A stretch of 64,000 nt of DNA from Novosphingobium arvoryzae (GTDB lineage Bacteria; Pseudomonadota; Alphaproteobacteria; Sphingomonadales; Sphingomonadaceae): NCBI RefSeq assembly GCF_014652615.1, contig NZ_BMZD01000002.1, positions 496,001 through 560,000 of the forward strand, written 5' to 3'. Positions 10,355 through 38,069 of this stretch are shown here, one piece after another. The translations under genes and the position numbers were made by a program. How positions within the stretch are numbered: the first letter of the stretch is position 1; the number at the start of each line of letters is the position of its first letter. The notes under the pieces were generated by a model, which did no database searches, was not told where the DNA came from, and saw only the letters and a program-made list of their open reading frames with translations.

Positions 10355-10666
10355 ATGTTCCTCGTCGTCTTTCGCAACCGCAAGCGCGCCGACATCGATG
10401 CCGCCGCGTATTCCGCCGATGCCGCCCGGATGGAGGCGCTCGCCCGCGCCCAGCCGGGCTTCGTCTCGTTCAAGGGCTATACCGCCGAAGATGGCGAGGT
10501 GATCGCCCTGTCAGAATGGGCCAGCGCCGAAGCCGCCCGCGCGTGGGGCAGCCACCCGGACCACAGCGCCACCCAATCGCGCGGGCGGGCCGAATACTAT
10601 CAGGACTATACGCTCTACACCTGCGACAACCCCCGCACCCACCACTTCGAGAGGCCGCAATCGTGA
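10355..10666 (+). CDS. Antibiotic biosynthesis monooxygenase (ABM)-fold protein
   Basis: The 103-residue product has the small ferredoxin-like ABM pattern: [27 protein letters not shown], and [25 protein letters not shown]. Members of this fold include haem-degrading and quinol monooxygenases, but most short ones have no known substrate. Its TGA overlaps the GTG start of the split ArsC/Spx-family gene (GTGA), so these genes were translationally coupled before the element inserted. Confidence 0.75.
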
Positions 10667-10697
10667 CCGTCACCGTCTATGGCATCCCCAACTGCGA
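10663..10697 (+). pseudogene. ArsC/Spx-family protein, 5' fragment cut by the element
   Basis: Thirty-five bases survive, starting GTG at 10663 and encoding [11 protein letters not shown], which includes the conserved Asn-Cys of the family's thioredoxin-like active site. The frame then runs into element DNA and stops at 10758 after 31 codons. Joining 10663-10697 to 38094-38406 gives exactly 348 bases, a complete 115-residue protein in frame (PNC followed by DTVKKA). The split is therefore clean, with no base gained or lost beyond the shared GA. Confidence 0.93.
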
Positions 10698-10719
10698 GCT
10701 AGACAAGATAGTTGTACAC
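10696..10719. other. attL: core GA and left element arm
   Basis: The crossover dinucleotide GA is at 10696-10697. Ten element bases follow (10698-10707), then the arm ATAGTTGTACAC at 10708-10719. This arm is the exact reverse complement of the arm at the right end (38070-38081), at the same distance from the core. Chromosomal sequence of the split gene lies to the left. Confidence 0.92.
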
Positions 10720-10933: not shown

Positions 10934-11305
10934 ATGACTCTGAGAATGTTTGGTATCGCGAATTGCGACACGATCAAGCGGGCTAAGGCATGGCTCAGCG
11001 CAGAGGGCATCGCCTTCGACTTCCATGACTACAAAAAATCAGGCGCCGATCCGGCCCTGCTGCAAGCATGGGTCACGGAGCTTGGATGGGAAGTTTTGCT
11101 GAACCGTGCTGGGACAACTTTTCGCGCATTGCCGGATGCAGACAAGCAGAACATCGATACAGGCAAGGCTATTGCGCTGATGCTGGCCAACCCCTCGATG
11201 ATCAAACGGCCCGTGCTCGATTTAGGAGGACGCCGTATCGTCGGCTTCAAGCCTGACGTGTATGCTGCTGAGCTGGTGTCAGCAGGAACAGAAGTCCTAC
11301 GCTAG
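10934..11305 (+). CDS. ArsC/Spx-family protein, element-borne replacement copy
   Basis: This 123-residue protein is the same family as the gene split by the element: MFGIANCDTIKRAKAW at the N terminus, FHDYKKSGAD, LNRAGTTFRALPDADK and MIKRPVLDLGG. By eye about 55-60% of residues match the reconstructed host protein, and no frameshift is present. The family (YffB/Spx-like, thioredoxin fold) includes arsenate reductases and redox or RNA-polymerase-binding proteins; the role here is not known. It lies about 240 bases inside the left end in the same direction as the broken gene. The codons around its Asn-Cys-Asp differ from the chromosomal attB, which could protect it from the element's own recombinase. 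Confidence 0.9.
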   Translation: MTLRMFGIANCDTIKRAKAWLSAEGIAFDFHDYKKSGADPALLQAWVTELGWEVLLNRAGTTFRALPDADKQNIDTGKAIALMLANPSMIKRPVLDLGGRRIVGFKPDVYAAELVSAGTEVLR

Positions 11306-12588: not shown

Positions 12589-12708
12589 GAGCCGGGGTAA
12601 GGATTGCTTCCAGAGCCCTCATCTCTCTCATAGATGGTCTCCCCGTCAGCTCAAGCAAAGCTGATGCGTGATCCGAGTGACACGCTTTCTGACGAAGGGA
12701 AACACATC

Positions 12709-14517
12709 ATGAATATCGCAAATGAAATCCTCGAAACCGACATTGACGCTGCCAAGCTCAACGCCTTTGTGAGCAAGGCTCAGTCTGCTTACAAGCTGTA
12801 CAAGACGGCGGCAATGGAATCCGCTGCAAACTGCTACCTGCTCTGGCACTTCGCGGCTTCCGAAGCTGCCGAAGATTTTGCCCGCGCATGGTTTGACGCG
12901 AAGTTGGACGACTACAACGCCGAAGTTGACCGCTTCAACAACGCCCTCCCCGATCTCGAAGCTCGCGTCGCTGCCTATCTCGCAGACGACAGCAAGGACA
13001 TTTCCGCCGAGGAATTCGCCAAGATTGAGGTTTATCTCGGCTATTCCAAGGAGGACTGGGGCAAGGCTGCCAAGGTCAAGGCCGAAGCCCGCGAAGGCGC
13101 AAGCCCGTTCACGATTGTGGTCAAGTTCGTGTTCGAGTTCGACCGCGCTGCGGATGCCTCGAATGTTTCGCGCTATGCCAAGGTGCTGGAATACATCCAC
13201 GAGCACCGTGACCAGCTCGACAGCATGACCGAAGATGCAATCATTGCGTTGCTCAAGAAGGCAGGCGGGTTTGAGGCTGCGCTCGACATTGCCCGTGGCA
13301 ACGCACCGGAAAACAGCATCAGCGCAAACAACAAGGACGCCAACGCGGCGGGCAGCGACGCCGAAGCGGATGCCAAGCGCAACGAGAAGGTCTCGGCTAT
13401 CAAGAAGGCCATCTCCCATGCCGTGCCCGTCGCGGACCTCAACTATGTCCCGAAGTTTGCCCGCGATGGCTATGTGTTCCTGATTGGCCGCAAGGTCGAT
13501 GATCAGGTCGCAATCTACGGCGAACTGGAAGCATCTGAGAACGAAGCCAAGTCGCTGGTTCTTAAGGTCGACACTGACGTGCTTGGCGGCCTCAACCCGT
13601 TTGCTGAGTTTGCGGCCAAGGTCTGCGAAATCGGCACGATGGTGCGCGACGGTAAGAAGAGCATCTACACTGCCGACGGCACCAGCTCTGGTGAACATCT
13701 CAAGGTGGCTCGCACTTACGTGCTGCGCGATGACGAACGTGGCACCTTCGTGCAGGTTTCCGCCCGCTACACCGATACGTCGGCGGTGATCATTGCCCGA
13801 CCGAAGCCCGAAATTGACATCGGCCCGATCCCGTCCGGTCAGTTCCTGATGCTGCCCACGGAGCGCCGCGAAGACGATACTGTCACCAAGACGGGTAAGG
13901 ACCTCGCCAAGCAGGTCAGCAGCATCGGGGATCGCATCATGTTCGGTATGACGGCGATTGCCGGGACTGAGGATGCGCCCCTGATCTGGCAGATCGTGCC
14001 GAACGGGAAGGCAGTGGAGCAGTGCGAAAAGGAGCCTCGCTTCTGCTGGACGCTTGCCTCCAAGGAGAAGCACCAGCCTGTCTGCATCGAAAGCTTCAAT
14101 GCCAAGTTCACCACCGAGCTGCGCAAGACGGCGGTGCAGAGCATCTATGAAGCTTACATCGGAAATTGGCAGAAGGCGAAGAAGGACGAGGACAAGACCT
14201 TCCTGCCCATCACGCTGTCCTACAACGGGCTCAGCCTGAGCTTCGCGCACGCCAAGCATAAGTCGTATCTTGTACCGCTTGGGGCAGAAGAGCAGCCGAT
14301 GGTCACGCTGGCACTGCGGCCCCGCGACATTGCCGACCTGTTCAAGCTTCTGGCGGAACAGAACACTGACAGCTTTGTCATGAAGGCTGACCCCAACGGC
14401 CTGCTGATGGTGCGCTGGTCGGACAAGTTCGGTGAGTACGAAATCTACCTGCCGACTGTGAATGAAAAGGGCGGGCTCAAGGATCGCTGCCTGACCGTGC
14501 TTTCCTGCCTCATCTAG
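12709..14517 (+). CDS. Large hypothetical protein upstream of the DpdA-like gene, possible clamp-like C terminus
   Basis: The 602-residue product is acidic and mainly helical in its first 250 residues, with an Ala/Asn/Asp-rich linker (residues about 205-225), then a beta-rich C-terminal half. Near the C terminus, VTLALRPRDIADLFKLL, ADPNGLLMVRW and YEIYLPT follow the order and spacing of the last domain of a DNA polymerase III beta sliding clamp; this is a pattern resemblance only. The start at 12709 is chosen for GAAGGGA nine bases upstream; ATGs at 12634 and 12664 lack one. It is 86 bases from the DpdA-like gene, so the two probably work together on DNA. Confidence 0.65.
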   Translation: MNIANEILETDIDAAKLNAFVSKAQSAYKLYKTAAMESAANCYLLWHFAASEAAEDFARAWFDAKLDDYNAEVDRFNNALPDLEARVAAYLADDSKDISAEEFAKIEVYLGYSKEDWGKAAKVKAEAREGASPFTIVVKFVFEFDRAADASNVSRYAKVLEYIHEHRDQLDSMTEDAIIALLKKAGGFEAALDIARGNAPENSISANNKDANAAGSDAEADAKRNEKVSAIKKAISHAVPVADLNYVPKFARDGYVFLIGRKVDDQVAIYGELEASENEAKSLVLKVDTDVLGGLNPFAEFAAKVCEIGTMVRDGKKSIYTADGTSSGEHLKVARTYVLRDDERGTFVQVSARYTDTSAVIIARPKPEIDIGPIPSGQFLMLPTERREDDTVTKTGKDLAKQVSSIGDRIMFGMTAIAGTEDAPLIWQIVPNGKAVEQCEKEPRFCWTLASKEKHQPVCIESFNAKFTTELRKTAVQSIYEAYIGNWQKAKKDEDKTFLPITLSYNGLSLSFAHAKHKSYLVPLGAEEQPMVTLALRPRDIADLFKLLAEQNTDSFVMKADPNGLLMVRWSDKFGEYEIYLPTVNEKGGLKDRCLTVLSCLI

Positions 14518-14603: not shown

Positions 14604-15944
14604 ATGGACCGTGAAATCCATAACGATGCCGCTTGGCCGTTTCCCCGGTACGCAAACCACATTGAAAACGACATCACGCCCAAAGATCAGGCCATCTACG
14701 TGCCATCTGTGAGCCCTTCCCACGCACAGATGATCTATGATGGGATCATCAATGCAACGTACTGGGGCCGTGCCCTTCCCAAAGGAGTGACGGCAGCCGA
14801 TCTCAACTTCCTCGATCCTGCCAACAAGCTGTTCCGCATTTCGCACGTCATGACCTCGGCTGGTCAGGCGATGAAGCAGAAGAAGCCGTGCATCATCTCG
14901 CAGCGTGATCGCGAAAACACCTTGGTCATCTGCGACAGCGGCGGCTACCAGATTGCCAGCGATAAGTTCCCGATTGAGGATGACAGTGACCGCAAGAAGG
15001 TTCTGGACTGGATCGAGGCCAATGCCGACATCTCGATGACGCTGGACGTTCCGACAGGCCCTGTCGTGAAGAACCCTACGAAGTACCGTTTCAAGTCGAC
15101 CGACGAATGCCTGTCTGCCACGATGGAGCATCTTCGCTACTTCCATCGCAATCGCACGCCGGGAAAGGTTCGCTTCCTGAATGTGCTGCAAGGGAACACG
15201 CCTGCTGAAGCCGATATCTGGTACAAAACTGTGAAGCAGTACAAGTTTGAAGGCTGGGCGTTTGCGGGCCGCCTGCGGCACAATTTCTACGAGCTTTGTC
15301 GCCGCCTGCTCATCATGTGGCATGATGGTGAGCTGGAACACACGACCCACATTCATGTGCTGGGGACGAATGAGCTCGACACCGCTGTGCTGCTGACGGC
15401 GTTGCAGCGCACTCTCAAGAAGCGCACGGGTTACGACATCCGCATCTCCTACGATACCAGCACCCCATGGCGGAGCCTGCGCTTCAATCAGATGATGACG
15501 CTGCCCACGTTCGAGCCGGGTCGGATGGTCATGGGTGCTGTCGATGTTCCTGAGAACAAGCAGTTTCGTGACAGTCCGCTTCCGTGGCCGTGGCCCAGCC
15601 CGATTGGTAACAAGATGGTCATGGGCGACTATTGCGTCACCGGCTCGCTGACGAGCAGCTTGTTCCGTGACCGGCTCAGCGAAGTCCTGCTGGCACACCA
15701 CAACCTCGGTGCATTGTGCTGGGCGATTGCAACGGCAAACCGCTTTTTCGACATCGCGACGATCAACAACAAGTTTCAGTATGGTCGCCCCGAGGGCTCT
15801 GCGGTCGAGGTGATCGACGAGATTTTCAAGTCGGGTCAGATGGCCACGCTGGAACGGTACAAGGACACGACCTTCAACCGGCTGCGCCATTCTCAAGACT
15901 TCGATGATGGCGACAGCGGGCGCTATTGGGACGAGTTGTTCTAA
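14604..15944 (+). CDS. TGT-superfamily transglycosylase, DpdA-like (7-deazaguanine DNA modification candidate)
   Basis: The 446-residue protein follows the tRNA-guanine transglycosylase barrel in order. DSGGYQ at 111-116 matches the general-acid motif, ADISMTLDVP at 141-150 matches the base-recognition Asp, VLQGN at 195-199 and AFAGR at 219-223 match the VQGG and AIGGL motifs, HVLGT at 251-255 matches LMGVG, and SYDTSTPWR at 282-290 carries the candidate nucleophile Asp284. The C terminus keeps an HHNLG...FFDI helix, but the usual Cys-x-Cys-x2-Cys zinc cluster is absent, so a tRNA role is unlikely. DpdA enzymes insert 7-deazaguanines into DNA. No preQ0 synthesis genes are here, so precursor would come from the host. 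GGAGA precedes the ATG. Confidence 0.72.
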   Translation: MDREIHNDAAWPFPRYANHIENDITPKDQAIYVPSVSPSHAQMIYDGIINATYWGRALPKGVTAADLNFLDPANKLFRISHVMTSAGQAMKQKKPCIISQRDRENTLVICDSGGYQIASDKFPIEDDSDRKKVLDWIEANADISMTLDVPTGPVVKNPTKYRFKSTDECLSATMEHLRYFHRNRTPGKVRFLNVLQGNTPAEADIWYKTVKQYKFEGWAFAGRLRHNFYELCRRLLIMWHDGELEHTTHIHVLGTNELDTAVLLTALQRTLKKRTGYDIRISYDTSTPWRSLRFNQMMTLPTFEPGRMVMGAVDVPENKQFRDSPLPWPWPSPIGNKMVMGDYCVTGSLTSSLFRDRLSEVLLAHHNLGALCWAIATANRFFDIATINNKFQYGRPEGSAVEVIDEIFKSGQMATLERYKDTTFNRLRHSQDFDDGDSGRYWDELF

Positions 15945-16148: not shown

Positions 16149-16694
16149 TCAAAGCTGGACTATGTGCTCGACAGGTAGCTCTTCACTTTCCGGCCCCATA
16201 AAGAATTTGCGCTCATTCCGGATAGGATCGATCACTAATCCAATGGAGTGCCGGTGGTTGAAAAATGATCGTTGCGTATGACGGTCCGTTCCGCTGAAAA
16301 AAGCACCGAGGTTCGGGTGGCTGTGATACCAGCCTACTACGTATTGCCCCTCTACACCTTGCTCACGAGCAGCATCCCAAACATCTGCCGACATTTCCAA
16401 CGATACGCTCGTCGATGAGAAGGTGCTGGATTGAACACCTTTCTCCACTGTTACAAAGAAATCAGAAGGACAATCTTCATCTTGGAAGACTCTACCCAGT
16501 AGTAACCCGCCCATCTCCACATTGCGCTTTTCGAGATGCTCATTGACATCATCAATTACGGATCTTTGCAACACAATTACAGGCTTTGAACGGAACTTGT
16601 TAAGTACGTAAAGACACTCAAGGAAGCCCATCGAGCGGAAGCCGGCCTCGATGTCTGCCGGCATAAAATCGGGCTTCTTCTCCGTCCAGCGCAT
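16149..16694 (-). CDS. JAMM/JAB-domain isopeptidase of the ubiquitin-like operon
   Basis: The 181-residue protein has a complete JAMM zinc site: Glu60 (in VEMGGLLLG), His124 and His126 (WYHSHP), Ser134 and Asp137 (SGTD), matching E-xn-HxH-x7-S-x2-D. Such enzymes cut ubiquitin-like proteins from targets or trim their precursors. The ATG at 16694 shares a base with the E2 stop (TAATG), fitting the coupled style of the operon; a GTG at 16733 is an alternative. It is last of six genes. In related bacterial operons the JAMM enzyme prepares the Ubl C terminus, which suits the Ubl here because it ends in Gly-Cys. Confidence 0.9.
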   Translation of the reverse strand: MRWTEKKPDFMPADIEAGFRSMGFLECLYVLNKFRSKPVIVLQRSVIDDVNEHLEKRNVEMGGLLLGRVFQDEDCPSDFFVTVEKGVQSSTFSSTSVSLEMSADVWDAAREQGVEGQYVVGWYHSHPNLGAFFSGTDRHTQRSFFNHRHSIGLVIDPIRNERKFFMGPESEELPVEHIVQL

Positions 16695-17332
16695 TAGGAT
16701 TGTATCCTGAACCCAGTTGCGCACTTTGGGCACTTAACATCTAGCGTCTTGCCTGATGGGACAGACAAGGATGCTGCGCAATTTGGACACTTGATAATCG
16801 ACTTGAGCGGCTCTGACGGAATAGACTTCCAGCTTATACTTGCTGCCTTTTCGCCCGCATCCCAGTTGACCCGGTCGGTTGGGAAAGCAGCCGGATTGGT
16901 CGCTCTTGCCTTGCGATACCATGATACCGCATTCGAGTTTGCAGGAGATGCCTCATTAAGCACCGTGGGATCATAGGTAATAATTTGCGCAATTCGCTTC
17001 ACCAGAAGGTCCATACCAAAGGATGGTAGCCATTTCAGGCCAAGGCATATTCGACCAGAGGTATATACGTTAGGATGAAGGATCGGCGTTGTTATCGTTA
17101 CGGATGGTTCCACGAACGGATATCGTGCTGGAAGTGAGATGACACACTTTGTCAACTTGCCGATTTCTTTTGGGTAACGTTCAGAGGGGGCAACTTTCAA
17201 ATTGAAGTGTACCTCGACCTCTGAAGGAGGGCTGCCTTTAACATTGGCTAGTTGTAACAGGCCTTGAGAGGATTTTTGTAGCTGCTCTAGCTTCTGTATA
17301 TCCTGCATTCGCCTTTGGTCATGCGCATTCAT
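16694..17332 (-). CDS. E2-like ubiquitin-conjugating protein with C-terminal zinc ribbon
   Basis: The 212-residue product has the eukaryote-like E2 core: LPARYPFVEPSVTI, then LHPNVYTSGRICLG, giving the HPN motif (86-88) and the catalytic Cys96, followed by a conserved Trp101. About residues 180-206 form a zinc ribbon (Cys182, Cys185, Cys201, Cys204), which typical E2s lack. E2s accept the activated ubiquitin-like protein from E1 as a thioester and pass it to a target. The ribbon may select the target or bind nucleic acid. Three bases separate it from the Ubl gene, and its stop overlaps the JAMM start. Confidence 0.88.
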   Translation of the reverse strand: MNAHDQRRMQDIQKLEQLQKSSQGLLQLANVKGSPPSEVEVHFNLKVAPSERYPKEIGKLTKCVISLPARYPFVEPSVTITTPILHPNVYTSGRICLGLKWLPSFGMDLLVKRIAQIITYDPTVLNEASPANSNAVSWYRKARATNPAAFPTDRVNWDAGEKAASISWKSIPSEPLKSIIKCPNCAASLSVPSGKTLDVKCPKCATGFRIQS

Positions 17333-17335
17333 GGA

Positions 17336-17590
17336 TCAGCATCCTGCAACCAACACGGGCTGCACCTCAAGGATTTGGCCATTCTGTACAAGTTCTTCGC
17401 TTAGAGCTTGCGAGGGTGAGATTGCCTTGCCTGAAGACGTGTTGACGAGGGTATAGTCTGTATCGGACGGTAGCGCCCAGTTATCTACAGCGGCTTGGAT
17501 TATGTCACCGCCAACACTCGTTCGGGCCATGGTGACCTCTGCTTTGCGAGTTTGATCAGCAGTTCTGATGATCACAGTAACTTCACTCAT
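17336..17590 (-). CDS. Ubiquitin-like (beta-grasp) protein
   Basis: The 84-residue protein begins VTVIIRTADQTRKAEV and has LVNTSSGKAISPSQALSEELVQNGQILEV, the strand-turn order of a single beta-grasp domain with a late "NGQILEV" strand as in ubiquitin-like proteins. It ends Ala-Gly-Cys, so removal of one residue would expose Gly83 for adenylation. Bil-type systems have a longer two-domain Ubl; this one is single. The start overlaps the E1 stop by ATGA. Position between E1 and E2 genes makes the assignment firm despite the short sequence. Confidence 0.85.
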   Translation of the reverse strand: MSEVTVIIRTADQTRKAEVTMARTSVGGDIIQAAVDNWALPSDTDYTLVNTSSGKAISPSQALSEELVQNGQILEVQPVLVAGC

Positions 17591-18690
17591 ATCTCTTCCC
17601 TCACAAATTCAAGAACCAACGTGCAATCGTCGACATTCGCCATAACGAACTTGCATGGCATGGGCATACCGCCAGCGGCACTCACTAGTTCGTCGGGCGT
17701 AAAGCTATCTCGGATATCAAGATCGACAGCGCCCGGATCGTCGGAGACCTGTGCCGGGAAATCGCTGTTAAAGTCAGAGGCCCTGCGGAACACCGACTTG
17801 TAGGCTTCGCCTATCCGATAACCCACCAAAATTGGATCACTTGCAATAAGCTGCATTGCCTGATCCAAGCCTTTTATATCTTCTGAAATTGACGGCTGAG
17901 CAGGGAATATGTTCACTTTCCCAGATATGTGGGCGCAGCAAGCGCATTCGGCATTCTTATCCATTGTTATCTTGTTGGATGTACCATTTATCGTATCTAC
18001 GAATATCCTAGCGGCCTCTTTGGCCTCGCCTTCAATTGCAAGGCGTAGGCCCTCAGAGCAGGCAAAACTGGCGGCAATGGATGATGTCACTATCGTTGTC
18101 GGTATCTTCTTCTCGATGAACGAAACCTTCTTAAGGTGTCCACAGGAATATCTCTGCGAAAGCCGCTGATAGACGCTATGAGGAAGGTGGCATTCGTAGC
18201 ATGCTACATGCGCCCCTGCGCTAAGGGGGAACACCTCAACCACACATGCTCTGCTGTCGATCCCGACATTAATCAAGTCCACACCAGCCAGCCTGCATAG
18301 CAGATTGCTCCTTATGCGAGCTTCGAAGTTATCAACACAGCAATAGACGGCATCAAAATTCCTGATTTGAGATAGGGAGAGTTCATCCCAGAAATCGCCA
18401 TACGTGAAAGTGATGCTTACATTAGGATCAAGCTGCCTTGCCCGCTCGCATGCCACTTTAGCTTTAGGTTCTCCGACATCCTCCTCACGGAACAAGACGC
18501 TTCTGGTGAGATTGTGTATCTCAATAAGATCGAAATCGAATACGTGGATTTGACCTATCCCGAGCAGAACTAGGTTTTTAATAACTTCGTTTCCGACAGC
18601 GCCGGCCCCAATCACAATGGCCTTCGACTGGCTGACCTTAGCTTGGTCGAACCAATCGATCATATCGTGGCGAAGATAACGTTCGGTCAT
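17587..18690 (-). CDS. E1-like (ThiF/UBA) activating enzyme
   Basis: The 367-residue protein has one Rossmann-type adenylation domain: IGAGAVGNE at 28-35, FDFDLIEIHNLTR at 51-63 (acidic pair plus Asn-Leu-x-Arg), and VYCCVDN at 115-121. Cys164/Cys167 and Cys249/Cys252 form a likely zinc tetrad, and Cys183 in the loop between them is the candidate catalytic cysteine. It would adenylate the ubiquitin-like protein and hand it to the E2. Some known bacterial E1s have an inactive plus an active adenylation domain; this one has a single domain and an extra C-terminal region of about 110 residues. It overlaps both neighbours by ATGA. Confidence 0.9.
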   Translation of the reverse strand: MTERYLRHDMIDWFDQAKVSQSKAIVIGAGAVGNEVIKNLVLLGIGQIHVFDFDLIEIHNLTRSVLFREEDVGEPKAKVACERARQLDPNVSITFTYGDFWDELSLSQIRNFDAVYCCVDNFEARIRSNLLCRLAGVDLINVGIDSRACVVEVFPLSAGAHVACYECHLPHSVYQRLSQRYSCGHLKKVSFIEKKIPTTIVTSSIAASFACSEGLRLAIEGEAKEAARIFVDTINGTSNKITMDKNAECACCAHISGKVNIFPAQPSISEDIKGLDQAMQLIASDPILVGYRIGEAYKSVFRRASDFNSDFPAQVSDDPGAVDLDIRDSFTPDELVSAAGGMPMPCKFVMANVDDCTLVLEFVREEI

Positions 18691-20156: not shown

Positions 20157-21098
20157 TCAGCGTTCGCCTTTGAGTCTCAAAATGAACGGTTTCAAAGCTT
20201 TTTCGAGGCGGATCATCGCGTCAATCTGGCTGTCCTGAAGAGCAGGCCAAAGCTCATCGGAGGAGCGGTAGCCGCCATCTGTCAAAGTCATGCTGATGCG
20301 ACATGCCCGCTTACCTTCCAGCCCTTCCCACCTCAGCGGACCGCCAAAGGCCGCTTCGATTTCAGGTTTATGGCTTTCAAGTTGGTCGAACAGCGCCTTG
20401 TTCTCGTCCTCACAGCCCTTACCACGGTCAATGTAAAGCTCTGCCGTGCGGCTGTCCTGCTTGACTGAATAATTCAGGTTTAGGCCGCGAAAGCCAGAGC
20501 TTACCCCTATCCAAGAATAGTCGCCGGGGGTGATATGAGCGTGGAGACGAGACTTCGGTTTGGAACGTTCAATCAAATCGGTCCACCAGCGATTTCGGAT
20601 GGCATATCGCTCGGCAAACTCCTTACGGGCCATGCCGACTTCTTTAGCTTCCTCGGATGGACCGGCAATCAGCGTCAGCAGTGGTGCGGCGGGTGAACCG
20701 GCAATACGCACAGCTTCCACTTTGACCATGTAGAAATCGGCATCCAGTGCCTGATTGAGCCAGCCAATCGCAGCAACGTGCTCGGGCCTTGGCTCCCTGA
20801 CGATCCAAATGGCAGCTTTTGCCTGCATGGCCGTGAGGTAGGTGATCAGCTTACCGAGATGGTCGTGGTCACTCTTTTCCAGCTGATTTTCGATGATTAG
20901 CTTACGGCCTGATGCATCTTCGCCAACCAGATCAATGCTGAACTTTCCGGCAGCCTGCTCACGATCCACGTTGACGATTTCAAGGTCCAACGCCTCGTTC
21001 ACAACGTCAATATTCTGCTCAAGCCATGCCGTGAAATCGTAGGCCTCGTGCGCCCACACCTCACGCAAAGGCACCCGTTCGAGCTTACCGATAGCCAT
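20157..21098 (-). CDS. DUF4268-like protein with nuclease-like N-terminal domain
   Basis: The 313-residue protein has an N-terminal segment KFSIDLVGEDASGRKLIIENQLEKSDHDHLGKLITY (shown here only as the key pieces DLV, IIENQ and DHDHLGK), resembling the PD-(D/E)xK-like domain found before DUF4268. The C-terminal half (FSRKTQWW-like region around RNRWWTDL and SWIGVSSGFRGLNLNY) fits DUF4268. Such proteins occur near restriction genes. It starts 12 bases after the res stop and is the last gene of the extended type III operon. Confidence 0.65.
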   Translation of the reverse strand: MAIGKLERVPLREVWAHEAYDFTAWLEQNIDVVNEALDLEIVNVDREQAAGKFSIDLVGEDASGRKLIIENQLEKSDHDHLGKLITYLTAMQAKAAIWIVREPRPEHVAAIGWLNQALDADFYMVKVEAVRIAGSPAAPLLTLIAGPSEEAKEVGMARKEFAERYAIRNRWWTDLIERSKPKSRLHAHITPGDYSWIGVSSGFRGLNLNYSVKQDSRTAELYIDRGKGCEDENKALFDQLESHKPEIEAAFGGPLRWEGLEGKRACRISMTLTDGGYRSSDELWPALQDSQIDAMIRLEKALKPFILRLKGER

Positions 21099-21110
21099 AC
21101 CGCCTCCCTC

Positions 21111-23807
21111 TCAATGACTGCCAAATTTAGCCAGCAAGCCTGCCAGAGTGGCACTCTCATTGATCGCTTGGTCAGAGATCAGCGCATAGCGCCATGTCTT
21201 GCCATCACCTTCGGCTACAAACTGGTTGGCATGTTTGACCCATTCCTTGGCCGCTCGCGCCTTGTCCTGCACAACCGGGTCCGTCATCTGGTTTTCGGCC
21301 TTGATCTCGACAATCAGCTTCTCGGACACTGTCTCCACTACGAAGTCTGGCTCGTACCGCTTGCCTGACTGGTACTCGATGCGGAACTGGTTGTAGCCCG
21401 GCTTGAGCCAGCGCAGCACGTCCTTCTCAAAGGCGCTGTCAATCAGCACGGCAAAGCGCCGCTCTGGGTCACTGTCAAACTTGTGGAACTGATACGGGCT
21501 CTTCGCCCCGCCTTGGAACACGAAGCTCGGCGTTGCAGAAAGTGGCGTCGCAGCCTGCGTAAGCGGTAACAGCTTAGACGCAGCGTGGCTGTAATGCTGT
21601 GGCTGCAAGGTACGGAATGACCGCGTTTTGCTGGCCTGATAATCCGCTGGCGTTTCGCGGTAATGCAGCTTCATCTGCGCGAAAATGCGCTGCGCGAGCA
21701 TCTTGCCATGGGCAAGGGCGACATTCTCCACGTCCTGCTCATTGGGCAGATAGCTACGGAGGTGGTCAATCATCTGCCCCGCCAGCTTGTAGAGCAGATC
21801 AGCCTGCGTGTCGTAGTCAACCTGCGGGTAATCCATCAGGTGTTTGACCAGATAATTCTCCACCTGGCTTTCCTTCGGGCCTTCAAGCGCCCGTGCCAGC
21901 TCGCGCTGCGATTCATCACGCAGATTGCGGATCAGCAGCTTGTCTGAAATTGGCTGCAACCGCACATCGCTGATGCCGGTCAGGTCGAAATCCTCAAACC
22001 AGAAGTTCACTTCGCGGCTCGGCAGGATGACGATTTCCGGGATTTCGATGGTGTTTTCGGCAATGCTGGTGACGACAGCGGCCACGACCTTGGCGAAATC
22101 GGTGGGTGCCACGATGCCTTCGAGGGTGCCTTGCTGCGCTTGGGTCAGGCGCTGCACATCCTTGGCAATCTGTTGCTGTACCTCGGGCTTTTGCAGCTCG
22201 TTCACGCCGCCCTTCAATTGGCGCTCATACTTGTCGCGGATGATGTCGATGGTGGTTGCGACGGCCTGACGCTCCTCCTTTGTCGTGAAGATTGGAGGTT
22301 TGGGCTGGCTGTCGGATGCAGCGGGCAATTCAGAGCCTGTGCCCGTCAGGTCCGAGACAAACTTAGGCTCGACCTTGATGATCGTTTCCGGCTCGGTCGA
22401 AATATCGCCGCCGTTGCCGATCCGGTATTCCTTGATCTGGACAAGGGAGTCTGCCTCCCGTGCCTTCTTGATCACCTCATCAAATCGGTCGTGGGCAATA
22501 ACGGTCAGGGTATCAACGGCCTCATTCCCGGTGCGCTCGCCATATGGGAGACGCAGACCACGCCCCAAGGTCTGTTCGGTCAGAATGTCGGAAGCCGAGG
22601 CCCGAAGCGGCACGATGGTGTAGAGGTTGGTAACGTCCCAACCCTCTTTCAGCTTGTTGACGTGAATGACGATGTCCGTGTCGCCCGCATGTTCCAGCGT
22701 CACAAGGCGCTGCATGGCCTCGTCGCTTTCCTCGCCTTTCAGGTTCGAGTGCACTTCGATGACGCGGCCCTTGTAGGCTCCGGCGAAAAAGTCATCGCTT
22801 TCGATCTGATCGCGCAGGTCTTTGGCATGTTTGGTGTCCTGCGCCACAACCAGCATGAAGGGATAAACCCGCCTGCGTCCTGTTTCGCGGGAATAGAGCT
22901 CCAGCTCATTCTTCACGTGCTCGTGATAGTGCACGCCGTCCTCAAGCATGATCCGCTCAAGCGATTGGGCATCGTAGTCCGAGGCGCGGAAATCAGCGCG
23001 GGTGGCTACGGCAGGTTCTTTCACGAAACCATCGGCCATCGCATTGCCGAGGCCATAATTATAGATGACGTTCTTGAAATCCTTGGGGCTTGCGCCAACC
23101 GTCTTGGGTGTGGCGGTCAATTCCAAGCCTAGCTTGGGATCAAGCTCGTAGATCGCATTGGCACCGGCCTTGGCCCTGTAACGGTGCGCCTCATCCATCA
23201 GCATCACAAGGTCGGGCAGCTTGGAGAGATAGTCGAAGTAGCTATCGCCCAGCGTTTCACGGAAACTGCGGATTTTGCCCGTTTCCTTGTTGATCTTGTC
23301 GACGTTGAAGATGTTGATGATGGCTTCCGAGCCGAACAGGTCTGAGCCGCGAATGCCGCGCCCTTCCTGCCATGTGTCGCCGGTTACGATGATGGGCGGC
23401 GTCTGGGCAAACTCAGCGATGCCCCGGAACACGTATTTGGGCGACGACTGCTTGGAGAAGTCATCGACCAGCTTGTTGTAGATCGTGGTGTTCGGCGCGA
23501 GAACAAAGAAGTTTTTTGAGCGCCCGGTGAGGTAAAGGAAGGCGATGAACGCCCCCATCAACCGGGTCTTGCCCACACCCGTTGCCAGCGCGAAGCAGAG
23601 CGACGGGAAATCGCGCTCAAACGACTGGACTGAGGGATATTGCCCCTGAATTTCCTTGAGCAACTCAACAAGATCGCTGGTCTGAGCGAAATCCATCTTG
23701 GCAAGCACATCGCCCAAGATGGTCAGGGCATTTTCTTGCGGCGCACGAAGGCTAAGGCGCTGTGCTATCTGGCGACGAATGCGGGTTTCGTTGACGGGTT
23801 CAGCCAT
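21111..23807 (-). CDS. Type III restriction endonuclease subunit Res
   Basis: The 898-residue protein has an N-terminal superfamily 2 helicase: LATGVGKTRLMGAF (Walker A), LMDEAHRYRA (DEAH-type motif II), LTATPKT (motif III) and QTLGRGLRLP (motif VI). A C-terminal PD-(D/E)xK nuclease follows with EPDFVVETVSEKLIVEIKAE (Asp ... Glu-x-Lys). It translocates on and cuts DNA together with Mod. The ATG at 23807 is preferred because GGGGAG lies 8 bases upstream and it overlaps mod by eight bases; a longer frame to 23870 would run deep into mod. Confidence 0.92.
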   Translation of the reverse strand: MAEPVNETRIRRQIAQRLSLRAPQENALTILGDVLAKMDFAQTSDLVELLKEIQGQYPSVQSFERDFPSLCFALATGVGKTRLMGAFIAFLYLTGRSKNFFVLAPNTTIYNKLVDDFSKQSSPKYVFRGIAEFAQTPPIIVTGDTWQEGRGIRGSDLFGSEAIINIFNVDKINKETGKIRSFRETLGDSYFDYLSKLPDLVMLMDEAHRYRAKAGANAIYELDPKLGLELTATPKTVGASPKDFKNVIYNYGLGNAMADGFVKEPAVATRADFRASDYDAQSLERIMLEDGVHYHEHVKNELELYSRETGRRRVYPFMLVVAQDTKHAKDLRDQIESDDFFAGAYKGRVIEVHSNLKGEESDEAMQRLVTLEHAGDTDIVIHVNKLKEGWDVTNLYTIVPLRASASDILTEQTLGRGLRLPYGERTGNEAVDTLTVIAHDRFDEVIKKAREADSLVQIKEYRIGNGGDISTEPETIIKVEPKFVSDLTGTGSELPAASDSQPKPPIFTTKEERQAVATTIDIIRDKYERQLKGGVNELQKPEVQQQIAKDVQRLTQAQQGTLEGIVAPTDFAKVVAAVVTSIAENTIEIPEIVILPSREVNFWFEDFDLTGISDVRLQPISDKLLIRNLRDESQRELARALEGPKESQVENYLVKHLMDYPQVDYDTQADLLYKLAGQMIDHLRSYLPNEQDVENVALAHGKMLAQRIFAQMKLHYRETPADYQASKTRSFRTLQPQHYSHAASKLLPLTQAATPLSATPSFVFQGGAKSPYQFHKFDSDPERRFAVLIDSAFEKDVLRWLKPGYNQFRIEYQSGKRYEPDFVVETVSEKLIVEIKAENQMTDPVVQDKARAAKEWVKHANQFVAEGDGKTWRYALISDQAINESATLAGLLAKFGSH

Positions 23808-25461
23808 TGGCGTTCTCCCCACCAAAGAGCGGCAAGCCATCGGTCGAGGGCGCTTCTTCCGGCGCTTCATCTTCAGCCATTGGCAGGTTCTGAATGTTCA
23901 GCGAGTAGTCGTCCCGGCCCCATTCGCACTTCTGCAGGATGGAGGTCGGGATTTTCACCATCGTCAGGTTCTCGAACGCATCCGCGCCTTCGTCATAGGC
24001 CTTGCAGCAAATGAGCAGGGAACGATCCGGGCCGACATCATGGGAAATCTTGGCGCAGGCGTCGTAGGTGAGGCTTTGCGTCGTGACGTAGATGAAGTCG
24101 GTTTCGGTTGATGAGCCGTGCAGCCAGTATTCCTGCGGATCAGAGGACGGCGCATAGGTGAAGCCCATATGCTTGCACATGGCTTCCGCGAGCATCGCCG
24201 GATTGTAGTCTTTGGCGATGACCCAGTTGCCGTACTTGTCTTGGCTCAGCAGCGATGGCGCGAGGGTGAAATAGCGGAAGCCGCCACCACCCTTCCAATC
24301 AACAGCCTTGCTGATGCCCCCTTGGTCGGTGCCGTCGATTACCTTTTGGAGACGAGGCAACACATGGGTGTCGGCGTGTTCCCCGATTTCCACCATGATC
24401 CAGCGCCGGCCCATTTTGTGAGCCACAGCTCCGGTTGTGCCGGAGCCTGAGAAGCTATCCAGCACTATGTCGCCCGGCAATGTCGCGGTTTCGATTATCC
24501 GTTTCAGAAGCTTCTCAGGCTTTGGAGTGGAAAAGACATTATCTATCGACGCAAGAGATGATAATTCCTTTGCCTCTTTATTGGCTTCCCGATTTTCGCC
24601 TGCGTCTTGATACGACCACCAAGTCCAGCCTACGAGACCTTGCTCGTTCTCAGCCCAGAACTTTTTGCGTTGCGGCATACCGTTGCCATCTCGACCGAAA
24701 TATATTCGGTTATCACGCACAAGTTCCTCAAATTTCTCCTTGGTTGTCGCCCAATGCCTGCCACTGGGTGGTGTTAAGACCCTTCCTCCAGGGGTTATGA
24801 TTTCATATTCCAAATTCGCTCGAAGATTTGGAGCATGGATAGGAACGGCCAACCAATCACCGCGAGGGTCGTTATCCCGATTCGTGTAGGTTGCCCTCTG
24901 CTTTTCATCGTTCGCAACGCGATTAAAAACCGCGATATCTGCATTTTTTGCATAAATAAGAACATGGTCGTGAGCGTTCGACAGCAAACGAGCGTCGTTG
25001 CGTCTCGTGAGAGTTTTCTGCCAAACAACATTAGCCACAAAGTTGGAACGACCGAATATTTCATCGCACATCACCTTCAGGTAATGCGCTTCGTTATCGT
25101 CAATCGTGATCCAAAGAGAGCCATCATCCGATAGGAGGCGCTTCAAGATATCCAGCCTGTCGCGCATAAAGCTCAGCCAAATAGAATGCTCCAGCCCATC
25201 GTCGTAGTGCTCGAACGCTGATCCGGTGTTGTACGGTGGATCGATGAAAACGCACTTCACCTTACCAGAGAAATCCTGCTCCAGCGCCTTAAGCGCGAGC
25301 AGGTTATCGCCCTTGATGAGCATGTTGTCGAAGATGTCGCCCTCGCGCCGCACTTTGGCGTGATAGCTCTTATCAGGGTTCTCGATCAGAATGCGCGGCT
25401 CCAGCTTCGGGCGCTCATCCTTGCCGGGCCAAGTCAGTTCAAGTTTGGTTTTCTTCGTCAT
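23800..25461 (-). CDS. Type III DNA methyltransferase subunit Mod
   Basis: The 553-residue protein has DPPYNTG at 74-80 and DSFSGSGTT at 335-343. The order, catalytic motif IV before the AdoMet motif I, marks a beta-class amino-methyltransferase as in type III systems. The target-recognition domain lies between. It would methylate adenine in an asymmetric site and guide Res. It has a 134-base gap to the upstream Sel1-repeat gene, so mod-res may have its own promoter inside the larger operon. Confidence 0.93.
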   Translation of the reverse strand: MTKKTKLELTWPGKDERPKLEPRILIENPDKSYHAKVRREGDIFDNMLIKGDNLLALKALEQDFSGKVKCVFIDPPYNTGSAFEHYDDGLEHSIWLSFMRDRLDILKRLLSDDGSLWITIDDNEAHYLKVMCDEIFGRSNFVANVVWQKTLTRRNDARLLSNAHDHVLIYAKNADIAVFNRVANDEKQRATYTNRDNDPRGDWLAVPIHAPNLRANLEYEIITPGGRVLTPPSGRHWATTKEKFEELVRDNRIYFGRDGNGMPQRKKFWAENEQGLVGWTWWSYQDAGENREANKEAKELSSLASIDNVFSTPKPEKLLKRIIETATLPGDIVLDSFSGSGTTGAVAHKMGRRWIMVEIGEHADTHVLPRLQKVIDGTDQGGISKAVDWKGGGGFRYFTLAPSLLSQDKYGNWVIAKDYNPAMLAEAMCKHMGFTYAPSSDPQEYWLHGSSTETDFIYVTTQSLTYDACAKISHDVGPDRSLLICCKAYDEGADAFENLTMVKIPTSILQKCEWGRDDYSLNIQNLPMAEDEAPEEAPSTDGLPLFGGENANG

Positions 25462-25595
25462 AGTGCGCAGTTTTGCTTACCTCTTATAGCCAAAATCGAA
25501 CAATCTATCTCACGTTTTGGCCATATCATGTTCAACTCATCACTTCTGGTGTGCCTTGCCGTCGGCCATGTTTGTGTAGATGGCGCCTATCATCC

Positions 25596-27446
25596 TCAGC
25601 TTGTCACCCATCTCTCATTACATGATGGACACGTAATTTGCTGACCCGCCTGCATTGGCTCGTTAATCTTCTGATTGCAGCATGGGCAACGTGGCATTTC
25701 AATGTACATTTTTCCTGCAATTTCATCATCGCAATGTGAAAGAAGAACATGGCCCGCCCCTTCGGCGTTCGCTCGCTTGGGCTGGAAAACCACCCCTTCT
25801 GTGCTCGGCGCTTCCGGCAAGGCAGCCGCCTGCGCGGAATGTAAGGCTAGAGCCTGCAAAATCGCCTGAGCTTCGAGATGTCCATTATCAGCAGCTCTAG
25901 CGAGCCAAACATTTGCCTCTAATGCGCTATCTGGGAGCGACTTGAGTGCCTTGAGCAGTTCATATAGACGAAATTGTGCATCTAAATGCTCCTGCTCGGC
26001 TGCCCGACGATACCACGTCACAGCTTCTAACCAATCCGATGCAACCCCAAGGCCATAGTCATAGGCTTGACCAGTTTGAAACTGTGCATCTGGATCGCCT
26101 TGACCTGCGGCAAGCCGATACCAGTTTAAAGCGGCTTTATCATCTTGATCGACGCCTTCGCCGTTGTCGTAGAGGACGCCTAGGTTCCACTGCGCATTGC
26201 TGTTACCTTGTTCTGCTGAAATTAGATAACATCTGAATGCTTCTGCGAGGTTCTGCGCTACACCTTCACCATTGTGATAAAGCACTCCAAGGTTGCACCA
26301 AGCGTCAGAGTTGCCTTGCTCTGCCGCCATTTTGTACCATCGAAAAGCTTCTGCATAGTCCTGTTCGACACCGTCGCCATGAGCGAAACTCATACCAAGA
26401 CTGAATTGAGCGTCAGCATCACCCTGTTCGGCTAATGCGATCAGTTGGCCCATAGGATCTTTTTCTATGGATAGCGCGGCCAGTTCATCTACTGCCAACG
26501 CAATGGAATTGCTGAAAATTATATGGGATGCTTGGGGGACTTCATCAAATCTCGAATGTCTTTCGCGATTAGGTGATTTCCTGCCTCTCTTCTGTTCCTC
26601 AGTATTTCTGCGCCTAATCTCGTGGGTAATTTTATCTGTGTCGTCGTCAAAATCTTGCTCACGAACGCGATCATTTCTGGCCGACGTGATGCTCGATCTA
26701 AAGCTACCTTCACGATCATTATAAGCTTCAATGTAGCTGAGAACGGTCTGTACGATTTGATCTGCTTGATAATCGGATCGCTTGGCTCCTTTCCAGTTAA
26801 CGAGCCAGTGCACGTCGAGGTGAGTTTTGAAGCGGAGTTTCGATAGAGCTCGCTTTTCTAGTTCGGCAAACTCGTCCCTGATACGTTGCCGCTCCGCTTT
26901 GAATTCCGATAACTCGAGGTCTTGCCGTGCCTCACATTCTGCAATCAGGCGGAGATAGGGGATGCCGTCATCCGACGATGCTTCGCCCATCCGACGCAAG
27001 CGCCGAAGGTCGGAAATTTGTCTATCGAGGTTTTTGAGGTGTCGATCTAGTTGATGTTCGAGTTGCAGAATGAGAGCCTCATTAGCTTTATATAAGTCGC
27101 GCATATCGGCGTCGGCCTCCCGAAGCCAACGCCTTTTCATCCACTCAACTTCCTCAGCAACAATGTCGTTGAGCTCAGCAGGTGGCACCTCCTCGCATAC
27201 CCTCGGAAATGAACAGCCACATTCAGTTAGGTGAGCCGCTTGAAAGCTCTTTATGGAATTTCCATACTCATCGCAGGCAGCGAGAATTTGGTAATTGTAT
27301 ACCTCACCTTCGCTTTCGATAGAAAGCTCTGCTGCGACTAACCATCCCCTACGATTTTCAAACTTCCGAACATGGTTGGACGGGCCAGCATAGCTATCTA
27401 GATCAATGATGATCTCGCTAGGGTAAAGGCCAAATCCATCCAGCAT
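25596..27446 (-). CDS. Coiled-coil, Sel1-repeat and zinc-ribbon protein in the type III operon
   Basis: The 616-residue protein has three parts. Residues about 85-215 contain coiled coil (LEHQLDRHLKNLDRQISDLRR and a second heptad region). Residues about 330-530 contain at least five Sel1-like repeats, such as GDADAQFSLGMSFAHGDGV and GNSDAWCNLGVLYHNGEGV. The C terminus is a zinc ribbon (CPCC ... CPSC). The function is unknown; Sel1 repeats bind proteins, and the ribbon could bind nucleic acid. It lies four bases from the SNF2 helicase gene and upstream of mod. In operons of this type I would expect a small DUF4391-like gene here instead. Confidence 0.75.
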   Translation of the reverse strand: MLDGFGLYPSEIIIDLDSYAGPSNHVRKFENRRGWLVAAELSIESEGEVYNYQILAACDEYGNSIKSFQAAHLTECGCSFPRVCEEVPPAELNDIVAEEVEWMKRRWLREADADMRDLYKANEALILQLEHQLDRHLKNLDRQISDLRRLRRMGEASSDDGIPYLRLIAECEARQDLELSEFKAERQRIRDEFAELEKRALSKLRFKTHLDVHWLVNWKGAKRSDYQADQIVQTVLSYIEAYNDREGSFRSSITSARNDRVREQDFDDDTDKITHEIRRRNTEEQKRGRKSPNRERHSRFDEVPQASHIIFSNSIALAVDELAALSIEKDPMGQLIALAEQGDADAQFSLGMSFAHGDGVEQDYAEAFRWYKMAAEQGNSDAWCNLGVLYHNGEGVAQNLAEAFRCYLISAEQGNSNAQWNLGVLYDNGEGVDQDDKAALNWYRLAAGQGDPDAQFQTGQAYDYGLGVASDWLEAVTWYRRAAEQEHLDAQFRLYELLKALKSLPDSALEANVWLARAADNGHLEAQAILQALALHSAQAAALPEAPSTEGVVFQPKRANAEGAGHVLLSHCDDEIAGKMYIEMPRCPCCNQKINEPMQAGQQITCPSCNERWVTS

Positions 27447-27450
27447 TCAG

Positions 27451-30294
27451 CTACTCGACTACCCAGCGCATTGTTAGCAGGTTATCAAATTTGGGCTTTT
27501 GATTGAGCTGCTCAGCAAACTCGTCAAGCTTATCACTGACCTCCTTGCGCACCTGCTTGCGGCGCTCGAACTTGGATAGCTTGGTATCGTCCACATCGCC
27601 TTGCAGCTTCTTGATCTTACGGCTCAGCTCAAGCTTCTGCTCCATCGACAGGTCAGGCGAACGCTTTTGGCGTTGCAGCTCCTTGATCTCAGCTTCCATC
27701 GTATCGACCAGCGCATCAAGCTCGATCTCGATGTCCGCTGCATAGCGATCCAGCCGCTCTTCTTCGGCTTCGATCCATTCGAAGTTTTCGCGCTTCACGC
27801 GATCAGAGAAGGCGAAGAACTGCTCCGATTGTAGGGCTTCCAGCCTCGCCTCATCCGGCTTTGCGCTAACCGATCCGGCATTCTCGCCCGGAACCATGAA
27901 CATCTTGTCCGCAATTTCCGAGGCAATGACCTCTCCACTGTCAGTCACGCAGGCAATCAACAGCTCTTCGCGAGGGGCATCTGGGGTGGGCATTGTCGCT
28001 TTGGAAACCCGCAGCCATCCCGACTGCCCAGACAGCGCATTCACTGCGGTCATCTGACCTGCATAGGGATACTCTTTGGGCTTGAACCGGATTGCCGCCG
28101 GCGATGAGGCGTGATCCCGTGCCTTGGCTTCGTCAACGATCTGTAAGCCAAGTCCGTCCGATACGCGGAAGAACTGCCAATCCTGCTCATCGGCCACCGG
28201 CCATGCGGTCGTGTAGGTCTGCCCATGATAGGTAAAGTGCTCACTATCGGGCTGAGGGAATGCAGCGCCATCCAGCTCTGCCTGCGCCACCATAAGCAGC
28301 CGTTGGCGGAATTCAGGTATGCTGGCTGCGAGGGCGTTTTGACGGTGATGCAGCTTTTCGACAACCGCGCTGTCCAGCTCTCCCAGCACCTTGGTCCGGG
28401 CAGCGGCCATGTCGGCATCAATACGGTCCTTGATGCTCTCGGTCAGGATGTTGAACTCGAATTCTGCCTGTTCCTCGGTCCGGCACTCTTGGACAATGCG
28501 CAGAACCTCCCGCTCAAAGTCCAGCCCGTTGACCAATGTGCCTAGCACCTCGTCGCTGGCACCGAAAACGCCGTCGAACAGGTGAAACTTTTCGCTGAGA
28601 AGCTGGTGAATACGCTGCTCAGTCTGGTTCTTGAGGTTGAGCATGTTGACCACGGTCACGTCGATCAACTGCCCATAGCGGTGACAGCGGCCAATGCGCT
28701 GTTCCACCCGTTGCGGGTTCCACGGCAGGTCGAAATTGATCAGCAGGGAGCAGAATTGCAGGTTGATACCTTCCGCACCGCTTTCCGTAGCAATGAGGAT
28801 GGTCTTGTCATCACTCTTGAATGCTTCAACGATTGCAGCCTTCATGTCTGCCGTCTTGGAACCGGAAATCTTGTCAGTGCCTGCATACCGCGCCTTCCAT
28901 GCGGCATAGATGGCCTTGCTCTCGGCATCCGAGTTGGAGCCATTCATCAGGACAATCTGACCGCCGTAGCCATGACGCCCAAGGAGGTCGTTCAGATACA
29001 TCTGCGTCCGAACGCTCTCCGTGAAGATCACTGCCTTGCGCTTGCCGCCCTTGTTGGCGATTTCGTCGAGAACGGCAGGCAGCTGGCTGAGCAGCACCTC
29101 GCCTTTGGAGTTTTTGCCGATGGAGCGAGCTAGCTCCAGGTATGTTTCTAGCTCGGCGATCTCTGCGGCAAGCTTGGCGGGATCGATTGGCTCCTTGCCA
29201 TCGTCTCCGCCGTCTTCATCGGCTTCCTCGGCCAGTTCGTCGATGATCTCGATGTCGTCGGTCAGGTCTAGCGATGCGCAGCCTTTGGCCTTGAGCCTCT
29301 CAATTAGTTTCTCAAGGTAGCTGGCAACGGCGAAGGTCGATGATCCGAGGATTTTGCGGACTTGGAGGACGACGAGCTGATTGGCCTTGTCGCCGTAGGA
29401 GATCGTGTCCTTGCGTTGCAGGAATTCCGATAGCGCCTCGTAGAGCTGAACTTCGCTGGCGGTAGGATCGAACGTGAACGTGCGGGCATTGCGCTGCTTG
29501 AAGTTGATATGCCCAGCCTGCTGCACCTGCTTGCGCAATGTGCGGTGGCAGATGGGCTTCAAGCGTTCCTTGAGTACCTCAAGAGCCGTGGCTTTTGTGC
29601 TGCTCGCAGCATACTGCGCTCGAAAGGCGTTTTCCCCGCCGAAATGGTCGTCATCGATGATCGAGACGATGCCATAGAGTTCCATAAGGGAGTTTTGCAG
29701 CGGCGTGGCAGTGAGCAAGATTTTGAAGTGGTCGCGCAGGGCATCCTTGAGGTCTTTGGCCCGCTGCGAGCCCCCTTTTTTGTAGACGTTGCGCAGGCGG
29801 TGGGCTTCGTCGAATATGACCAAATCCCATTTGACCAGCTCAAGCTCGACGGCCTTTCGGGCGGCGAACTCATAGGAAACAATGACAACGCCTTCGGCAG
29901 CCTCGAATGGGCGACGATGGCCTTCCTTGCGCATGGCATTGTAGGTCGCAGCCTCGATGATGGTGCTGCGCAGTGAAAACTTATCGAAGAGCTCCTGCTG
30001 CCATTGCTTGCGCAGCGATGCAGGCACGATCAACACGATGCGACGGCGGTGCTCAGCCCAACGCTGCGAGATTACCAGCCCAGCTTCAATGGTTTTGCCG
30101 AGGCCAACTTCGTCCGCGAGGATCACGCCCTTGGAAAGCGGCGACTTGAGGGCGAACAAGGCCGCATCGACCTGATGCGGGTTCATTTCAACTCGGGCAG
30201 ACGTCAGGGAGCGGGTGAACGCATCCTCGTCCACTCCCGCCAAAGTCAGCTTATGGGCGTGATAGTGGCCCTGAACCTTAGTGAAACTGACCAA
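27451..30294 (-). CDS. SNF2-family helicase/ATPase in the extended type III operon
   Basis: The 947-residue protein has all SNF2 landmarks: LADEVGLGKTIEAGL (Walker A), FDEAHRLRN (DEAH motif II), LLTATPLQN (motif III), VIFTESVRT and QRIGRCHRYGQ (motif VI). The last 300 residues include a long charged coiled coil. It resembles RapA/HepA-like and defence-associated SNF2 helicases. As first gene of the operon helicase-Sel1-mod-res-DUF4268 it is probably a partner of the restriction system; DISARM's DrmD is similar in type, but no other DISARM gene is here. Confidence 0.85.
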   Translation of the reverse strand: MVSFTKVQGHYHAHKLTLAGVDEDAFTRSLTSARVEMNPHQVDAALFALKSPLSKGVILADEVGLGKTIEAGLVISQRWAEHRRRIVLIVPASLRKQWQQELFDKFSLRSTIIEAATYNAMRKEGHRRPFEAAEGVVIVSYEFAARKAVELELVKWDLVIFDEAHRLRNVYKKGGSQRAKDLKDALRDHFKILLTATPLQNSLMELYGIVSIIDDDHFGGENAFRAQYAASSTKATALEVLKERLKPICHRTLRKQVQQAGHINFKQRNARTFTFDPTASEVQLYEALSEFLQRKDTISYGDKANQLVVLQVRKILGSSTFAVASYLEKLIERLKAKGCASLDLTDDIEIIDELAEEADEDGGDDGKEPIDPAKLAAEIAELETYLELARSIGKNSKGEVLLSQLPAVLDEIANKGGKRKAVIFTESVRTQMYLNDLLGRHGYGGQIVLMNGSNSDAESKAIYAAWKARYAGTDKISGSKTADMKAAIVEAFKSDDKTILIATESGAEGINLQFCSLLINFDLPWNPQRVEQRIGRCHRYGQLIDVTVVNMLNLKNQTEQRIHQLLSEKFHLFDGVFGASDEVLGTLVNGLDFEREVLRIVQECRTEEQAEFEFNILTESIKDRIDADMAAARTKVLGELDSAVVEKLHHRQNALAASIPEFRQRLLMVAQAELDGAAFPQPDSEHFTYHGQTYTTAWPVADEQDWQFFRVSDGLGLQIVDEAKARDHASSPAAIRFKPKEYPYAGQMTAVNALSGQSGWLRVSKATMPTPDAPREELLIACVTDSGEVIASEIADKMFMVPGENAGSVSAKPDEARLEALQSEQFFAFSDRVKRENFEWIEAEEERLDRYAADIEIELDALVDTMEAEIKELQRQKRSPDLSMEQKLELSRKIKKLQGDVDDTKLSKFERRKQVRKEVSDKLDEFAEQLNQKPKFDNLLTMRWVVE

Positions 30295-30956: not shown

Positions 30957-31244
30957 TTCCATCACCCCTTGATGAACTTTTCTGCTGTGCTCAGCATATT
31001 TTCATCAGAAGGGCGTTCCTACCGGAAGGGGGGCGGTGAAGACCTCATAGATCTCAGTGGGATAGCCGTGGTCGGTGAACTTTTATGTATTTCTTCACCT
31101 CAATGCCGAGTGGGAGTGCGAGCCCGTTTTCTGGTTTGCTTTGCCCATAATGGAGTATCCCGGCGCAGAGGGAGGTTTCTGGCCGGGACACAAATATGAG
31201 AATACGCTAATGTAAGGTGCGCACTGTGCCAGCACGCCACCCGC

Positions 31245-35803: not shown

Positions 35804-36032
35804 ATCAATGCCTTTCATCGTGTTGATGAAGGCAAAGTAACTTCGGCTGGATTGGCCTTCCTACCGGAAATGGCTGAAAATCAGGCCTTTCATGGCCATT
35901 TTCTTGAGTGTCCCAAGATGAATTGGCCTGCCAATGGGATGCAGGATCAGTGAGAAAATGCCGGTTTTCACGGCCAAAGCATGGGAACTAGCCAAAGCCT
36001 TCCGTTTGGCGAGAGAGGCATAGCTACAATGG

Positions 36033-38011: not shown

Positions 38012-38069
38012 AGAGTTGGAAACCTGTAGAGCTTGTGCGTGCTCTTGGCATGTTAAGGCAATTTTTTGT

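Follow-up and report, generated by a model that had tools for sequence, protein, structure and literature searches.

A mobile element in Novosphingobium arvoryzae splits the single ArsC/YffB-family gene of its host, and a diverged copy of the same family carried by the element appears to take over the job of the broken gene, so that the insertion would cost the cell little. We give this reading a probability of roughly 0.78. The element was analysed within a window of 64,000 nucleotides, a term that designates here the whole stretch examined. That the copy substitutes for the host gene is well supported by comparison with related elements, and such a spare gene probably makes the insertion harmless.

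The split gene, the element and the carried copy

The element extends from 10698 to 38093 (27.4 kb) between the two halves of a small ArsC-family host gene, and its G+C content is 0.53 as against about 0.65–0.69 outside. By joined-frame analysis, the broken 5' end of the ArsC/YffB-family gene (10663–10697, forward strand) runs from a GTG start to the Asn-Cys-Asp codons, and this start at 10663 overlaps the stop codon of the upstream ABM-domain gene. The 3' part (38094–38406, forward strand) keeps its frame open. When the two halves are joined with a single GA retained, they form an open ArsC-family frame of 115 codons, which confirms the initial annotation in its view that the element breaks such a gene on a 2-base core.

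The ends of the element are marked by this GA core of 2 bp, found at 10696–10697 and again at 38092–38093. On the forward strand, attL (10696–10719) consists of the core followed by the left attP arm, with ATAGTTGTACAC at 10708–10719, and attR (38070–38093) consists of the right attP arm, with GTGTACAACTAT at 38070–38081, followed by the core. The arms GTGTACAACTAT and ATAGTTGTACAC are inverted repeats flanking the GA core. The start of a gene for a large serine recombinase (36374–38077, reverse strand) adjoins attR; its product has Resolvase (E value 1.6e-17), Recombinase (3e-08) and zinc-ribbon (8.5e-08) domains and matches a PHROG integrase family at 1.6e-72. The GA core, the inverted-repeat arms and the recombinase domains beside attR are together characteristic of large serine recombinase elements, for which integration and excision are predicted.

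Inside attL, on the strand of the split host gene, lies the proposed substitute for this gene, a complete ArsC-family copy of 123 residues (10934–11305, forward strand) that starts 236 bp past the core. The initial annotation had placed an intact gene of this family here in the orientation of the split gene, and this description holds. The copy matches Pfam ArsC with an E value of 2e-20, and its nearest solved structure is YffB (1rw1, E 2.7e-42). Host and copy proteins are identical at 67 of 115 aligned residues (66 if the host GTG start is read as Val), and the corresponding codons comprise 38 identical, 29 synonymous and 48 non-synonymous pairs. In the 42 bp around the core, host and copy agree at 28 positions. 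In a 3.3-Mb genome, the probability that the start of one unrelated gene falls on that strand no more than 300 bp from attL is about 4.6e-5.

The arrangement suggests a simple mechanism. The large serine recombinase would insert the element at the Asn-Cys-Asp codons through the 2-bp GA core and thereby split the host gene. After insertion the copy would lie in the place of this gene, behind host upstream sequence and in the same direction, and its own start codon would permit its translation. Read-through from the host promoter into the copy would be our favoured guess, since a weak scan of the stretch from attL to the copy detected no sigma-70-like promoter. We infer that the copy is expressed, by read-through or from a promoter of its own, that it performs the job of the host gene and that loss of the host gene is costly. 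If the recombinase excised the element precisely, the host gene would be whole again, which loss by deletion would not achieve; a host with a decayed element would therefore depend on the copy.

Related elements in the same gene and in other genes

A recombinase scan of genome contigs retrieved three loci. The recombinases of G199 (Erythrobacter sanguineus MAG) and G200 (Porphyrobacter sp. AAP82) are 81 and 77% identical to that of the window, and that of G201 (Sphingomonadaceae MAG) is 82% identical over its first part only. Further recombinase searches covered 199 family genomes, 195 genomes of the genus of the window and 114 of the genus of G199, one search of the 195 using an E value of 1e-140 that would miss truncated genes. 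They added one element in the same gene, G518, with a recombinase about 50–52% identical. In G403 both the coordinates and the match coincide with those of G201, and the two were taken as one genome.

All five elements (window, G199, G200, G201 and G518) sit in an ArsC-family gene that is broken after the GA of Asn-Cys-Asp, and in all five the GA core is present and the joined host frames are open. The left attP arm of the window element recurs in G199 and G200. The host gene is accompanied by ABM and aroC in the window, G201 and G518, and by a ruvC-like upstream sequence, recognised by reading, in G199 and G200. The target is therefore the gene and not the locus.

The copy-bearing sample comprises four elements, three of them closely related, and these are all the elements with a readable left end. 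Each holds an intact ArsC copy inside attL, on the strand of the broken gene and at the end away from the recombinase. The copy of G199 stands 200 bp from the core and is 80% identical to the window copy; that of G201 (79%) stands 289 bp from an inner attL and 1758 bp from an outer one; that of G518 (51%) stands 75 bp from the core, in an element whose attL and attR lie on separate contigs and were paired by their inverted-repeat arms. All four copies keep the conserved positions of the target family, the NCD motif included. With the E limits used, two ArsC matches were found in each of the four carrier genomes, one being the copy and the other the broken remnant, and the copy is the sole intact ArsC found in each.

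Membership of the family was also assessed with curated models. All four copies lie above the cut-off of TIGR01617 (NCBIfam) and reach the level of Pfam ArsC. For NF008107 (ArsC family reductase, cut-off 121 bits), the scores are 123.5 for G199, 123.4 for G201, 115.5 for the window and 113.7 for G518. With TIGR00014, the model of arsenate reductase proper, the copies score 22.2–29.6 bits, below its cut-off of 106.05.

The initial annotation had directed attention to co-carried ArsC genes beside attL, and these are present in all four readable elements that target arsC. It had also named relatives in the same gene lacking a copy as evidence against its proposal; they were looked for and not encountered, G200 being unreadable at its contig end. 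There, attL was found by pattern search 212 bp from the contig end, and no copy lies within these 212 bp, nor was any other ArsC found in the genome. The last bases before this contig end resemble, by eye, the end of an insertion sequence.

Elements in another gene provide the contrast. The sister elements G086 (loci L056 and L093) and G095 (L057 and L095) sit in comM, a target of islands in other bacteria, and their recombinases are 48 and 45% identical to that of the window. They resemble the window element in their related recombinases and their insertion inside a protein gene, and G095 also shares accessory ORFs with it. They differ in their target and in carrying neither a comM copy nor an ArsC: no second comM and no ArsC occur in G086 (about 12.8 kb) or G095 (15 kb), both of which were read across the whole interval between the two comM halves. 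In the short flanks of 15 recombinase loci, ArsC was present only in G201 and G518 and was missing from the 13 others. Two more distant recombinases (L006 and L079) also abut the 5' part of comM, and three recombinases 38–43% identical to that of the window (L074, L075 and L077) lie beside a dapB-like ORF, as read from translations.

These observations bear on a first alternative, according to which the copy is ordinary accessory cargo with a redox or arsenate function, or an Spx-like RNA polymerase-binding regulator working for the element, and owes its place near attL to accident. The ArsC family does include arsenate reductases and Spx, and the element holds much other cargo. We nevertheless consider this account unlikely, as it leaves unexplained why copies of two sequence lineages should recur beside attL on the same strand in every readable arsC-targeting element, why all should retain the conserved positions of the target family and why the comM sisters and the flanks of the 13 other loci should have none. 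Incidental cargo was rejected on the position at attL and on the comM contrast. Substitution for the broken gene remains our preferred reading.

How often the family has a second gene of this kind was addressed by a survey in which 346 of 397 family genomes gave an ArsC match. Two matches occurred in only three of these 346 rows, namely the genome of the window, G231 and G350, and the ArsC gene is normally single-copy in the family. The second matches of G231 and G350 were considered as element copies and rejected, as they are paralogues at 43 and 40%. Among the matches listed, no further family genome has an ArsC match that starts past residue 8. Loss of the gene may be tolerated in some lineages, because 38 of 360 good family genomes have no ArsC match at 1e-10; on the essentiality of the ArsC/YffB-family gene, we found nothing on point in the literature. 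In viral contigs, the recombinase profile retrieved one distant locus, 24% identical, and the copy gave no match. Plasmids (21 records) and phages (57 records) yielded only matches below 60% identity.

Selection, origin of the copies and renewed invasion

The dN/dS values among the window, G199 and G201 copies are 0.16, 0.09 and 0.11, with dS reaching 1.5 and near saturation for two pairs, and the differences among copies are in excess at third positions. The three-copy clade is under purifying selection. This result is relevant to a second alternative, in which the copy was captured when an element excised imprecisely or recombined at the target, and now evolves neutrally as a trace of that event. 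A gene of the target's own family adjoining attL is what such an event would leave behind. A neutral relic was rejected, however, as contradicted by the selection test; moreover, four elements have intact frames, and the trees place the three-copy clade apart from the carriers' own genes. We hold this origin to be very improbable, and the reading of the copy as a working substitute is retained.

The third-position G+C content of the copies (0.61–0.66, as against 0.70–0.90 in five host genes) matches the composition of the elements, and for this reason the copies appear to be long resident there and not freshly picked up. In two trees, the window, G199 and G201 copies form one clade (support 100/99 and 100/100), which is surrounded by ArsC genes from other genera and lies apart from the broken host genes. 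The G518 copy has a long branch and groups with genes from the genus of the window. The first tree left out L086, which is the G518 copy itself, and rows shorter than 90 aa; the second additionally left out H_L067 and H_L068, which had long branches. The host rows L023–L051 are best matches to the copy, so that sampling in the trees is denser around the copy than elsewhere in the family.

Forcing all four copies together costs 27.9 log units (p-AU 0.035), a marginal result of a test chosen after the first tree had been seen. Separate acquisition of a copy in two element lineages is on this basis considered no more than likely. Among the recombinases, the tree leaves G518, the pair from comM and the trio of the window side by side, without resolved order.

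At the G201 locus, only 3.4 kb of the element is left and the recombinase has been cut to 157 aa, yet the copy is whole. Such a state is not predicted by a third alternative, in which the copy serves the element through a regulated or exclusion function, for instance as a competing second copy whose presence gives redox control over recombination, or as the mark of an occupied site. The fixed position beside attL would suit this role, as would the fact that the NCD codons are the recombination site, so that each element renews the site. With a copy kept despite a truncated recombinase, we judge such a role distinctly improbable, and again favour substitution for the host gene.

The same locus contains two attL-like junctions in succession (L054, 2832–4474). 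From the outer attL to the copy, a direct repeat of 174 nt, 75% identical, recurs with a spacing of 1469 bp. The first member comprises the host 5' end and attL; in the other, an ArsC-like 5' end that has degenerated, with one stop and an Asn to His change by reading, is joined to the second attL. An ORF for a SEC-C protein (L054, 3218–4021) lies between the two junctions. The simplest reading would be serial invasion of one locus: a first element would have brought a copy, and a second would have used the same codon of that copy for its own insertion. The remainder of the first element would then have been lost, with the copy of the second left intact and its recombinase cut.

This history also bears on self-targeting. 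The initial annotation had noted that the site within the copy diverges from attB, and had supposed that the codon differences may stop the element from targeting its own copy. The divergence itself is borne out: over 42 bp, the sites of the copies agree with the used attB sites at 27–32 positions, and the used attB sites agree among themselves at 34–40. The supposed protection is not supported: at the single locus of G201, a second element seems to have entered an ArsC-like 5' end that an earlier one had brought, again at this codon, which speaks against a lasting immunity of the copy.

One may tentatively go further, with somewhat less confidence than an even chance would warrant, and envisage a recurrent gene replacement. 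Two element lineages would have taken up unrelated copies once they targeted ArsC, the target codons of each copy would let a later element insert there with a new copy of its own, and after decay, as in G201, the foreign gene would be the only ArsC of the host. If this were true, the element would be a machine for the permanent replacement of a core gene.

Known systems and other genes of the element

Islands that target tRNA genes restore the 3' end of their target by att identity. The window element is like them in that insertion need not cost the host the function of the target, and unlike them in that it supplies a whole gene. The principle of a carried replacement for the target gene is already known from Vibrio cholerae S24, whose recA mobile element (RME) is described in PMC4405046. 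According to that account, the RME is a 32.8-kb island that disrupts recA and carries a complete, 23% divergent recA at the end opposite its integrase. Its authors propose that the carried gene spares the cell the loss, and report that the copy was protective in experiments and that the island inserts in both orientations on a plasmid (PMC4405046). The same source cites a 4.2-kb insert in the thymidylate synthase gene of Clostridium difficile (Knetsch et al. 2011) that brings another version of the gene it disrupts (PMC4405046), and the window element likewise disrupts a gene and supplies another version of it.

As described there, the RME and the window element have in common insertion at a defined position within a conserved single-copy gene and a complete divergent copy at the end opposite the recombinase. 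The RME combines a phage-type integrase and inverted-repeat ends with recA, whereas here a large serine recombinase and a GA core are combined with the ArsC/YffB family. The RME copy was tested by experiment; the present system is known from sequence, in several species and with two copy lineages. It offers a contrast within one recombinase family (arsC against comM) and a likely second acquisition, which the RME, as reported, does not. In open-licence literature, we recognised no large serine recombinase element with a replacement of its target gene.

These comparisons lead to a testable general rule, namely that elements breaking a needed gene carry a substitute and that close relatives inserted in a spareable gene do not. 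The arsC/comM contrast inside one recombinase family permits a direct comparison. The system would also represent a route by which a core gene could come to be represented in a lineage solely by a foreign version that a mobile element left behind, and it calls for caution, since a lone ArsC gene in such a genome may belong to an element.

The other genes of the window element are partly shared with its relatives. An ORF of 627 aa (12634–14517, forward strand) has no match in Pfam, NCBIfam or PHROGs and has a relative in the G199 element at 24% identity. It is followed by an ORF of 446 aa (14604–15944, forward strand), to which ORFs of the G199 element (44%) and of the comM-targeting G095 element (36%) are related. 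Family and structure searches with the latter ORF gave no match, and its AlphaFold model (mean pLDDT 39.9) is too poor for use; it contains a CDSGGYQ stretch that may be reminiscent of tRNA-guanine transglycosylases. Near the other end, ORFs of 197 aa (34751–35344) and 135 aa (35411–35818), both on the reverse strand, are common to the G199, G518 and G095 elements.

A small ubiquitin-like conjugation cluster at 16149–18690, not found in the G199 element, consists of a JAB peptidase, an E2-like protein, a short unassigned ORF in the place of a ubiquitin-like protein and an E1/ThiF protein. Defence-type cargo occupies 20157–30294, with a Type III restriction-modification pair (mod 23800–25461, res 21111–23870), a PDC-S11/DUF4268 protein and a DrmD-like SNF2 helicase; mod, res and the helicase are also present in the G199 element at 75–93% identity. 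Away from both element ends, a short tyrosine-integrase catalytic domain is encoded at 30390–30965 (Phage_integrase, 1.2e-31), and it too occurs in the G199 element (90%).
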